From Haloarcula mannanilytica (GTDB lineage: Archaea > Halobacteriota > Halobacteria > Halobacteriales > Haloarculaceae): a stretch of 64,000 nucleotides of DNA. The notes beneath the pieces are model-generated. The model made no database searches. It was not told the DNA's origin and worked only from the letters and a program-made list of their open reading frames with translations. The stretch covers positions 124,001 through 188,000 of the forward strand of contig NZ_BIXZ01000001.1 in the NCBI RefSeq assembly GCF_005406125.1. The letters run 5' to 3'. Below are positions 16,903-32,459 of this stretch, in pieces; positions within the stretch are counted from its first letter, which is position 1, and each line of letters begins with the position of its first letter. The position numbers were made by a program, and so were the translations under genes.

Positions 16903-17235
16903 ATGCAAACGGGACTGGCGGCGTTAGATCCTCATAAAGTTGTATTGCCCATTATTGCGCTGATCGGACTCGTCCCGGTACTACTGCGCTACCGGCGAAG
17001 TTCGCGGTTGTTCGTGGTCGGCTACATGCTGTTGATCGTGGCGACAGTCGTGACCAACGTCGAGAACCTGTTTCTCGGCACGGTGCTCAACTACGCCGAG
17101 CATTACCTCGGCCTGATGGGTTCGGGTCTGGCATTCCTGTTCGCGGCGTATGTCCGCCGCCAGCAGGTCCTCTCGGACGATGTCGATGCGGACGGCCCTG
17201 ATATCGCTGCAGACGGCGGGAGGGCGGAATCGTGA
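16903..17235 (+). CDS. small membrane protein coupled to a chemotaxis transducer
   Basis: 110 residues with three hydrophobic segments (about 11-27, 35-56 and 67-83) and an acidic cytoplasmic tail. ATG 16903 is preferred over a GTG-type opening at 16855 because the TATA box cgtatatca lies 23-31 bp before it. Its TGA overlaps the GTG of the transducer gene, so both are translated together. Unknown family; by position it could be a sensor or partner subunit for the transducer, as sensory rhodopsins are for Htr proteins, but it has no retinal-binding Lys motif and is too short to be a rhodopsin. Confidence 0.7.
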
Positions 17236-18821
17236 GCGCACCAATCATCCTGGCGGACTTCGTCGCGGTCGCCGCCTACGGTGCGACGGTCGCACTCGGC
17301 GTCAAAACGTACCGCGAGACTGATCTTGACTCGGGATTCTGGGCGAGTTTCTCCTTCGCCGCGGCACTCGGATTCCTCTGGACTGGCGTCGTCTTCATTG
17401 AATGGATTGGCGTCGCCGGAGCGATCATGGACGCGCTCGGCACGTCGCTGCTGGCCGTCCTCGTCGGCGTCGTCGCGGTTTCCTCGACAGGGACCATCGC
17501 AACCGTCGAGGACCTCAAAACGGCCACCCGGGAAGCTTCAAGACGCCGCGCGGAGGCAGAAGAGCAGCGCCAGGCCGCAGAACAACAACGAAAGGAAGCG
17601 GAAACGGCCAAGGAGCAGGCAGAGGTGGCAAAGCGGGAATCCGAGGACCTGAACGCACACCTCCGGACGAAGGCCGAGTCGTTCGGGGCAACGATGCACG
17701 CGGCCGCTGCCGGGGACTTCACCCAGCGGATGGACCCCAAGAGCCGGACGGAGGCGATGACCGAGATCGCAACCGCGTTCAACGACATGATGGAGACGCT
17801 TTCGGAGACGCTCACGACCGTCACCCGCTTCGCCGGGCAGGTCGACGGTTCGACGGACGAACTCAGTGCCAGCGCTGAGGAGGTCCGGAACGCGAGTCGA
17901 GAGGTCAGCGATAACGTCGAGGAAATCGCCTCGAACACCGATCAACAACACGACAATGTCCGGACGGTCACCGACGAGATGACGGACCTGTCAGCGACAG
18001 TCGAGGAGATCGCGTCCTCGACCGACGAGGTGGCACAGATGTCCGAACAGGCGTCCGAGCTCGGCTCCGTCGGCAGCGAGCACGTAACCGACGCGAAATC
18101 CGAGATGGAAGCCATCGAAAACCAGGCCGAGTCGACAATCGGCAACGTCGAGTCCCTCGACACCGAGATGGACCAGATCGGGGAAATCGTCAGTGTCATC
18201 GAGGATATCGCCGAGCAGACGAATATGCTCGCGCTCAACGCCTCCATCGAGGCCGCCCGGGCCGGCGAAGCGGGCGAAGGCTTCGCTGTCGTCGCCGACG
18301 AAATCAAGGGCCTCGCACAGGAAACCGGCGAGGCGACCCAGCGCATCGCCGGGCGCATCGAGACGATTCAAGAGTCGACGACAGAGACCGTCGACGGCAT
18401 TCACGAGATGGACGACCGCGTCGATAACGGCCTTGAGACGGTCGACGAGACGATCAGCGTCCTCGAAGAGATTCTTGAACGCGTCGAGGAGGTCAACGCT
18501 GGCATCCAGTCCGTCGACGATGCGACCGACGAACAGGCGGCGTCGGCAGAGGAAGTGGTGGCGATGGTCGAGGAGTTCGACTCGATGACCGAGCGGACGA
18601 GCACCGGCGCACAGACCGCCGCTGCGGCGGCCGAGGAACAGACGGCGGCCATCGAGGGCGTCACCGACGACGTGGTCCACCTCTCGGACCAGGCTGACGA
18701 CCTCTCGGAACTCCTCGATGACTTCAAGTTCGCCGCGTCGGGCGGGAACGACCTCTCGACGGCGGGAACTGGCGATAGAGCGGCGGTGACCGACGGGAGC
18801 GGGCGACCCGAGCGGGACTGA
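17232..18821 (+). CDS. methyl-accepting chemotaxis transducer (Htr-type)
   Basis: 529 residues, GTG start. Three N-terminal membrane helices (about 5-25, 37-58, 64-84) with no sizeable extracellular domain, then a long charged coiled coil (about 98-140), a HAMP-like stretch ([19 protein letters not shown], about 155-175) and a full signalling hairpin whose tip reads [20 protein letters not shown]. Glu/Gln pairs in the flanking helices are likely methylation sites. The lack of an external sensor resembles Halobacterium MpcT, which senses membrane-potential change; alternatively the upstream small membrane protein supplies the sensor. It signals to CheA/CheW. Confidence 0.9.
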
Positions 18822-30115: not shown

Positions 30116-32443
30116 TCACTCTCTGTTCACATCAAACGTGTCGAGCCGTGTTTGGAGTTGTTTTGCCTGGGTGGCGAGTGACTCAACGTTTGAAGTAACT
30201 TGACTCATTGCGGACGCCTGTTGCCCTGCTGCGGTCGAAGCATCCTCCGCGGCGTTGGCGGTGTCTTCTCCGAGTTCCGCGACTTCGTCGATTATCGCCA
30301 TGACCTCCTCGGTGCTGCTGGCCTGGTTATCGACCGCCTGGGTTATCTCTTGGACACCGTCGTCGGTTTCCTCGACGTTGTCAACCACATCGATGAACGC
30401 ATCGACGGCGGTATCGACCGACTCGGTGGTGCCTTCGATTTCACGTTCGGCGCTCTGGATCCGTTCAACGGTTGTGGACGTGCGGTTCTGGACTTCCTCG
30501 ATGAGTGCGGAAATATCGTTGGCGGACTCCTGTGTTTCTTCGGCCAGTTGTTTGATTTCGTCGGCAACGACGGCGAATCCGTCGCTTGCGTCTGTGCCGT
30601 TGTTGCCCCCGGCCCGCGCTGCTTCGATATTTGCGTTGAGTGCCAGCATGTTCGTCTGGTCGGCGATGTCCGAGATCAGTTCCACGATCTCGTCGATCTG
30701 GGCCATCTGTTCGTCGAGTTGTTCAACGGCCGTAACGACCGACGACATTTCGGCCTGAATCCCTTCCATGTCTTCCCTCGCTTGTTTTGCAGTCGATTCG
30801 CCGTCCTGTCCGACTTCGGCGGTGTCTTCGGAGAGTTGCGCGACAGTCTGTGCCGTCGATGCGACCTCTTCGACCGTCGCGGAGAGGGTGTTCATCTCGC
30901 TGGATACTCTGTCGAGCCGCTCTCGCTGTTGGTCGGCCCGGTTTGTGACCCCGTTAATCGACTCGCTGACCTCATCGCTGGCCTGTTTGACTTCCTGTGC
31001 GCCTGAACTGGCCTGTTGGCTGGCTGCTGCAACGTCGTGGGAGAACGCCTGGAGATGTCCCATCGTCTCCTCAATGTCGTCAAGCATGGTGTTGAACGCC
31101 GTCGCAATTTCACCCATTGCGTTATTTTCGGTGTCCGTTGGCAACCGGACAGTCAGGTCACCGTCGGCACAGTCGCTCATGATCTCGCTGTATTCTTCTG
31201 CGCGCCCTTCGATTTGTTCGCGCAGTTCCTCTGATTCGTATCCCTCTTGAATCCGGTCTTGCAGCGAGCCGTGCATGCTGTCAAACGTCCCCTCCTCATG
31301 GAACAATGCAGGCCGATACTGCGTTGTCTCAGCGACCTCTCTGAGGTCACACCCGACCGTCTCTGAGAGAAACGTTTCCGCTATCTGTTCCGCCCCGAAG
31401 AACTCGAGATTGTGGTTCTCGTCAGCTCGCGCGATCCGCATGTTGTGGGTGAGGTGGTGTGTCGCTCCGTCGAGTGTCACAGTGCCTTCCGGTGCGTCGA
31501 ACGCCAGCCCACTCTGGAGTTGTTCTATCACTGCGTCTTGATCGGTTGTTCCCGCGGCTTCGACAGCTTTCGCGTAGAGATGTATCGAAACGTAACTGTT
31601 CTGTGCCTCTTGGTTGATGTATTCCGCGTCAGGGAACTTCCTGTAGAAACGCTCGACGAATGCCTCGCTTTCCGGTGTCGAGAGTTCCTCCATGTAATTA
31701 ACTCCGACGTGGACATCCGCGAACGCCGGGGCCTCATACCGTTTGTGTTCGAACGCCTGCGCCATCGCTGTCGACGTTCCGACAGGTATGGAGAGTCCAC
31801 GGTCGGCTTTCTTGCGGAAAAACTCCGCATGATTATCCCCGACGAGCATTGACATGATGACATCCGGATCAGCCGCCTCGATGGTATCTACTAACGACTC
31901 GAATGAAGTCTGTGATAGCGGGGCGAACTCCTTCCCGACCACCTCAGCGCCGTGTTCCGCGGCGAGAATATCCACCCAGTCGGCGGACAGATGCCCGAAG
32001 TTGTAGTCCGCCGCGATTGTGAAAATCTCCGGGCCGTGTTCTGAGACGAGGTACGGGAGCACGGTCCCGAGTTGCTGGCGGGCGGTCGCTCCCACAGGGA
32101 AGGTGTATCGGTCGCAGACTCCCCCCTCATACTGGTTCGTATAGAAGTAGAGCTGTCTATGAGCGTTTATTAACGGGCGGACAACCTCCCTCTCGGACGA
32201 CGCGTAGCCGGCCCAGATCGCGTCGGGGTCTTCCTCATCCAGAATATCGGTGACCAAGTGTCGGTATCGGTCTACGTCGGACTTCGGGTCCGGATCGATT
32301 ACCTCGATTTCACGACCGAGAACCCCTCCGCTCTCGTTTAACTCTTCGATTGCGAGACGGCTCGCCTGCCACTTTGAAGTGCCAAGCTCGGCGAACTTTC
32401 CCGACCGGTTCTCAAGGACAGCTACTGTGATCGGGTCAGACAC
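30116..32443 (-). CDS. soluble chemotaxis transducer with UrtA/AmiC-type solute-binding domain
   Basis: 775 residues. Residues 1 to about 360 form an ABC-type binding domain of the urea/short-chain-amide class (UrtA, FmdD, AmiC): GGVLGREIEVIDPDP, LYFYTNQYEGGVCD, ADYNFGH and FDAPEGTVTLDGATHH are all diagnostic. A HAMP-like stretch (ADGDLTVRLPTDTENNAM, near 435) and a complete MCP hairpin with tip [20 protein letters not shown] follow. There is no signal peptide and no membrane segment, so the sensor should lie in the cytoplasm and read an internal solute, reporting to CheA/CheW. The start GTG 32443 is set by a perfect Shine-Dalgarno 8 nt upstream; a frame extension to GTG 32455 would bury that site. 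Confidence 0.88.
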   Translation of the reverse strand: MSDPITVAVLENRSGKFAELGTSKWQASRLAIEELNESGGVLGREIEVIDPDPKSDVDRYRHLVTDILDEEDPDAIWAGYASSEREVVRPLINAHRQLYFYTNQYEGGVCDRYTFPVGATARQQLGTVLPYLVSEHGPEIFTIAADYNFGHLSADWVDILAAEHGAEVVGKEFAPLSQTSFESLVDTIEAADPDVIMSMLVGDNHAEFFRKKADRGLSIPVGTSTAMAQAFEHKRYEAPAFADVHVGVNYMEELSTPESEAFVERFYRKFPDAEYINQEAQNSYVSIHLYAKAVEAAGTTDQDAVIEQLQSGLAFDAPEGTVTLDGATHHLTHNMRIARADENHNLEFFGAEQIAETFLSETVGCDLREVAETTQYRPALFHEEGTFDSMHGSLQDRIQEGYESEELREQIEGRAEEYSEIMSDCADGDLTVRLPTDTENNAMGEIATAFNTMLDDIEETMGHLQAFSHDVAAASQQASSGAQEVKQASDEVSESINGVTNRADQQRERLDRVSSEMNTLSATVEEVASTAQTVAQLSEDTAEVGQDGESTAKQAREDMEGIQAEMSSVVTAVEQLDEQMAQIDEIVELISDIADQTNMLALNANIEAARAGGNNGTDASDGFAVVADEIKQLAEETQESANDISALIEEVQNRTSTTVERIQSAEREIEGTTESVDTAVDAFIDVVDNVEETDDGVQEITQAVDNQASSTEEVMAIIDEVAELGEDTANAAEDASTAAGQQASAMSQVTSNVESLATQAKQLQTRLDTFDVNRE

Positions 32444-32451
32444 CGTCCCTG

Positions 32452-32459
32452 TCACCTCC
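32452..32459 (-). promoter_or_regulatory. perfect Shine-Dalgarno GGAGGTGA for the soluble transducer
   Basis: Complementary to the archaeal 16S rRNA 3' end over 8 bases and 8 nt before GTG 32443. A TATA-like attcttatc at about 32492-32501 implies a short leader, unlike the leaderless genes around. Confidence 0.65.

Follow-up and report, generated by a model that had tools for sequence, protein, structure and literature searches.

The window analysed here, a 64,000-nucleotide stretch of the Haloarcula mannanilytica genome, carries on its minus strand (30116..32443) a gene in which a UrtA-type binding domain is joined through a coil and a HAMP-like segment to an MCP signalling domain, as recognized by profile matches and orthologues. 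In our view, the encoded protein is probably a soluble receptor for chemotaxis whose ligand is intracellular urea or a small amide closely resembling it. An earlier note on this DNA had proposed an internal taxis sensor; the cytoplasmic sensor fused to a transducer is borne out by the sequence, the predicted structure, and five genomes, whereas ligand binding, coupling to CheA, the dimer mechanism, the sign of the response, and any link to nitrogen status are our inference. In the proposed mechanism, the N-terminal clamshell domain would have its ancestry among the UrtA proteins that bind urea for uptake, would have lost its Tat/lipobox export signal, and would stand where a haloarchaeal transducer has its membrane sensor. 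Urea, diffused in or imported, would bind between the two lobes, which would close within the receptor dimer; the coil at residues 391-414 would relay this change via the HAMP-like helices to the MCP rod, which would alter CheA activity and, in turn, the switching of the archaellum motor. AmiC is a cytoplasmic amide sensor, and urea and small amides are able to cross membranes; therefore, an internal receptor would be workable here, as it is for AmiC.

The minus strand of the window from 30116 to 32455 forms one uninterrupted open reading frame of 779 codons beginning with a GTG at 32455. The second GTG at 32443 (775 amino acids), the coordinate that the earlier note gives, appears to be the better start because the Shine-Dalgarno-like GGAGGTGA (32452..32459, minus strand; a match by pattern only) precedes it by 8 nt; residue numbers nevertheless follow the 779-residue version. 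From the GTG at 32443, the N-terminus reads MSDPITVAVLENRSG and goes straight into the binding domain's first strand. The upstream frame meets a stop within six codons (open frame of 785 compared with the reading frame of 779), so that it holds no in-frame signal segment.

Residues 9-382 (31310..32431, minus strand) form a type-I periplasmic-binding-protein domain of the archaeal UrtA family TIGR03669, assigned by NCBIfam, AlphaFold2, and Foldseek. The TIGR03669 profile, which describes the archaeal urea ABC transporter binding protein, is matched over model positions 1-375 with 610 bits against a cut-off of 494.8, and Pfam adds Peripla_BP_6 (residues 8-347, E 6e-85) and Peripla_BP_5 (residues 9-351). 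The comparison of a predicted structure with UrtA and AmiC, suggested in the earlier note, agrees with this assignment: AlphaFold2 predicts a type-I binding-protein fold with confidence (pLDDT mostly >90 over residues 10-360, lower beyond), and the best Foldseek match in the PDB is a Caldicellulosiruptor urea-binding protein (TM-score 0.86 on the target), followed by cyanobacterial UrtA and Pseudomonas AmiC. The full-length AlphaFold model was poor outside the binding domain and hence was not used there.

A linker coil at about residues 391-414 (31214..31285, minus strand), placed by AlphaFold2 and by comparison with membrane transducers, leads to a single HAMP-like segment at residues 416-465 (31061..31210, minus strand), which corresponds to the HAMP-like segment that related membrane transducers carry next to their signalling domain. 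Pfam recognizes HAMP only over residues 430-462, with 21.8 bits under a 25-bit cut-off, so that "HAMP-like" is a fair label. From about residues 388-410 onward, in the helix leading into the HAMP-like segment, the fused protein resembles these membrane transducers, which indicates that the fusion replaces the extracellular sensor together with the membrane helices. The MCP signalling domain (PF00015, MCPsignal; residues 555-727; 30275..30793, minus strand; Pfam E 7e-41) contains an intact 23-residue hairpin-tip signature (residues 594-616; 30608..30676, minus strand), which is identical in one related membrane transducer (L158) and which we take to be the region of MCPs that contacts CheA and CheW. 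Both features of an MCP, the signalling domain and the conserved hairpin tip, are thus present.

The fused receptor is predicted to be cytoplasmic. Its best 19-residue Kyte-Doolittle window reaches 1.01; the membrane transducers that served as controls reach 2.2-2.8, and the Tat signal of the UrtA encoded in the same genome reaches 1.5. Like Car, the fused receptor has no transmembrane segment. The direct join of the binding domain to the HAMP-like and MCP regions without a signal peptide or membrane helix, as first described from the open reading frame, is therefore upheld by the Pfam/NCBIfam layout and by hydropathy, and the upstream transmembrane or signal segment named at the time as evidence to the contrary is absent. 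A hidden upstream signal peptide was also considered and rejected on the basis of the closed frame and inspection by eye of the three frames of the 240 nt upstream of the gene, where neither a Tat-like nor a hydrophobic segment was apparent. The three Halosimplex orthologues likewise lack a signal. In Natronomonas pharaonis, the frame is open for 33 residues further upstream and reads MGPRGTILEKLGRSTLVSTGSVGGVGGLIGKSTVSG, the RefSeq start lying after that stretch; MGPRGTILEKLGRSTLVSTGSVGGVGGLIGKSTVSG resembles a haloarchaeal Tat lipoprotein signal minus the second arginine and with lysine at the position of the lipobox cysteine, and it is possibly a relic of an exported ancestor.

The TIGR03669 profile was run against 391 genomes from the class and 146 from the family, among which fused open frames (785-843 amino acids) occurred in only five genomes of three genera: H. 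mannanilytica, N. pharaonis DSM 2160 (G099), and three Halosimplex (genus g11), including Halosimplex pelagicum (G419; complete chromosome) and Hs. carlsbadense (G417). The search for the same fusion in other haloarchaea, proposed as a follow-up, thus found it in four further genomes. The N. pharaonis fusion is located on plasmid PL131 (L178:9001-11391; NP_RS14050; WP_232503995.1; 796 amino acids). An assembly error or frameshift joining two genes, which had been named as a possible refutation, could find some support in the occurrence of the fusion in just one of the 32 genomes sampled from the genus of H. mannanilytica and in the GC content of the gene (0.574 compared with 0.643 for the window); nevertheless, the uninterrupted reading frame and the same fusion in the other genomes, among them plasmid PL131 and the complete Hs. 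pelagicum chromosome, refute it, and we regard its probability as negligible. The low GC3 (0.67 compared with about 0.82 for most neighbouring genes), together with the rarity of the fusion within the genus, suggests horizontal gain.

The binding halves of the other fusions are 82-89% identical to that of H. mannanilytica. For the signalling halves, identity remains at 78-80% in Halosimplex but is just 39% in N. pharaonis, where it falls at about residues 401-425; therefore, the same sensor sits there on a different signalling rod, and by this comparison the signalling half is exchanged in one lineage. In the tree, the fusion sensors form one clade (support 100/100) separate from every stand-alone UrtA sampled, with a stem of 0.7 changes per site; the tree carries a long-branch flag, and the exact branching point of the clade is unsure. 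Judged from this tree and the genomes searched, the fusion is of single origin and rare. Substitution rates show it to be under purifying selection, with dN of 0.06-0.10 in the binding domain compared with 0.10-0.55 in the signalling half, dS of 0.56-1.7, and a sensor dN/dS of about 0.07-0.1.

A related arrangement was found in Azospirillum, where UrtA-type and MCP domains also occur in one chain. The protein of Azospirillum sp. TSH58 (plasmid TSH58_p02, L179:2602-5019) has two N-terminal hydrophobic segments, an MCP region, and a C-terminal UrtA-type Peripla_BP_5 domain (422 bits); since no membrane segment separates the MCP and UrtA parts, the latter should be cytoplasmic. The protein occurs in four plasmid records, also on plasmids of A. 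brasilense and A. argentinense, its pocket differs in having Phe in place of Gln144, and this reverse-order fusion is apparently of independent origin. That an exported urea-transport protein became a cytoplasmic urea chemoreceptor, with its pocket kept, a decayed signal left in N. pharaonis, different rods joined to it, and a reverse-order fusion made independently in Azospirillum, is a plausible course of events that we put forward tentatively.

In addition to the fused receptor, H. mannanilytica encodes a separate, stand-alone UrtA. This protein carries the Tat/lipobox signal MSRRSVSRRQFLGASGAAVVAGLAGC, is 54-57% identical to the fusion sensor, and is encoded next to urtB/C/D-type transporter genes (assigned by eye), about 1 kb from ureC. 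Haloarchaeal UrtA (TIGR03669) thus resembles the fusion sensor in fold, family score, pocket, and about 54-57% identity, but it is exported and feeds a transporter, whereas the fusion lacks an export signal and carries an MCP signalling half. The urea pocket of Prochlorococcus (P. marinus) UrtA consists of W120, S122, Y141, Q144, E146, Y190, F192, N246, and S274 (PMC10392092). In the fusion sensor, the main cleft segments GYASS (83-87), YFYTNQYEG (103-111), and AADYNF (148-153), located at 31997..32209 on the minus strand, contain the equivalents of W120/S122, Y141/Q144/E146, and Y190/F192, and the remaining segments MLVGDN (203-208) and GTSTAMAQAFE (226-236), at 31748..31849 on the same strand, contain those of N246 (V205) and S274 (A230). 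Six of the nine residues are kept (S86, Y105, Q108, E110, Y151, and F153), and three differ (W120 to Y84, N246 to V205, and S274 to A230). The fusion sensor equals the genome's own urease-linked UrtA at all nine positions, including Y84, V205, and A230. Most of the nine residues are near-invariant across the wider family; therefore, what is telling is that the two proteins agree at the three positions that differ from Prochlorococcus UrtA.

Since the fusion sensor shares its pocket residues with the urease-linked UrtA, urea is the leading candidate ligand and small amides are the main alternative, a likely assignment predicted from sequence. Across the 391 class genomes, TIGR03669 and urease were found together in 84, UrtA only in 4, urease only in 28, and neither in 275 (Fisher p = 3e-55, without correction for relatedness); 77 of the 92 stand-alone UrtA genes are located 10 kb or less from ureC, and all five fusion genomes have urease as well as a stand-alone UrtA. 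The adjacency of UrtA and urease in Haloarcula marismortui was noted in a published comparison (PMC3098086). As a separate observation, UrtA lies far from urease on the same contig in some haloarchaea (G317, G349, G369, G081, and others), and four genomes with UrtA (G135, G173, G309, and G335) gave no urease match; such genes may serve another amide. Of the ligands named originally, urea or a close amide is favoured by the nine-position pocket match and the co-occurrence with urease, and an amino-acid derivative gained no positive support.

With the same architecture and mechanism, the physiological ligand might be a short-chain amide (formamide or acetamide), as for AmiC or bacterial amide-transport proteins, which we judge to be rather unlikely. 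AmiC, the amide receptor of the amidase operon of Pseudomonas aeruginosa, has the same fold as the fusion sensor (TM-score 0.86-0.87 on AmiC) and, unlike cyanobacterial UrtA, shares with it the Tyr and Val at the positions of Y84 and V205, as bacterial amide-linked proteins partly do. Asn246 makes a direct hydrogen bond to urea in cyanobacterial UrtA, where Trp120 also matters, and these are the residues replaced by V205 and Y84. The nearest bacterial homologues inspected adjoin apparent formamidase or amidase genes and an AmiC/AmiR-like pair (by eye), and a SIMBAL study reported amide-linked relatives with urea-like signatures, cautioning that urea- and amide-transport relatives share them (PMC3098086). 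Against an amide ligand, however, haloarchaeal TIGR03669 members track urease, the pocket is that of the urease-linked UrtA, and the FmdA-family formamidase gave no match in the three Halosimplex fusion genomes, a strong match in N. pharaonis, and only weak ones in H. mannanilytica. AmiC also differs in having Pro where UrtA has the pocket Gln, and it is a separate protein controlling AmiR and transcription antitermination, whereas the fusion sensor is joined to an MCP; neither an amidase nor AmiR was seen among the scanned neighbours of the fused gene.

A very improbable reading is that the binding domain binds no small ligand and serves only as a scaffold or dimerisation platform. The long stem separating the fusion clade from all sampled stand-alone UrtAs would fit such a role, but identity has dropped to about 55% outside the pocket without any change at the pocket positions, and the signalling half is evolving faster than the binding domain.

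Returning to urea-sensing chemotaxis as the preferred function, the output components were found in every fusion genome, with one CheA match (PF02895) in each of the five and archaellins in all of them. A cytoplasmic receptor that binds urea or an amide could also have an output other than taxis, or be mostly silent, since cytosolic transducers can form separate signalling groups: in Halobacterium salinarum, the cytosolic Htr11/Car, Htr13, and Htr15 were purified aerobically mainly with CheW2, not CheA (PMC3579733), and the fused gene stands alone, at a distance from any che genes. We nevertheless regard this as improbable, given the CheA match in each fusion genome, the intact hairpin tip, and the fact that Car, a member of the same group, does mediate arginine taxis.

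No che, arl, urt, or ure genes were found near the fused gene. It lacks both the export signal and the urtBCDE operon that mark the UrtA transporter component; therefore, its product is not filed as such. The scanned neighbours include a phosphoribosyltransferase-type gene, a thiolase, a TrmB regulator, and an alpha-amylase, and no conserved neighbourhood was found, the flanks differing among H. mannanilytica, Halosimplex, and N. pharaonis. The closest MCP relatives that were inspected resemble ordinary membrane transducers, their sensors being extracellular or multi-helix, and no wider family of soluble binding-protein fusions was found among them.

Soluble transducers, binding-protein-assisted taxis, and the UrtA/AmiC fold are already known. 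Car (Htr11, H. salinarum) is a soluble MCP without membrane helices that responds to an internal nutrient (PMC3579733), to which the fused receptor is similar in topology; the nutrient sensed by Car is arginine. The BasT/BasB and CosT/CosB pairs of H. salinarum likewise use transporter-type binding proteins to feed chemotaxis transducers (PMC3579733); however, BasB and CosB are separate partners of two-helix membrane transducers, whereas the fusion sensor is internal and covalently joined. No report of a cytoplasmic transducer that incorporates a UrtA-type domain was found in the literature searched, apart from a census of plant-associated bacteria in which one Peripla_BP_5 chemoreceptor domain is entered with no further remark (PMC8547431). 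Few haloarchaeal transducers have a known signal (8 of 18 in H. salinarum; PMC3579733), and for the fused receptor a strong prediction of the ligand can be made, since its sensor domain is related to a urease-linked binding protein and has the same pocket; the presence of the fusion in the well-studied N. pharaonis makes this prediction directly testable. The fusion would also illustrate how loss of the export signal can turn a transport protein into a receptor working inside the cell. Such receptors go unnoticed in automatic annotation, which labels them as transporter components: in RefSeq, the N. pharaonis fusion is called "urea ABC transporter substrate-binding protein", a name from which the MCP half is absent.

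Three further observations concern other loci of the genome. A second MCP gene in the window (17232-18821, plus strand; MCPsignal E 4e-44) has no Pfam-named sensor domain. An MCP-like match elsewhere in H. mannanilytica (contig C1:734011-734910, L012) contains one in-frame TAG and is possibly a broken transducer gene. The window segment 35777-43623 (plus strand) encodes a TrmB-type regulator, an alpha-amylase family enzyme, and a sugar-type ABC transporter binding protein, and is probably a sugar-uptake cluster.
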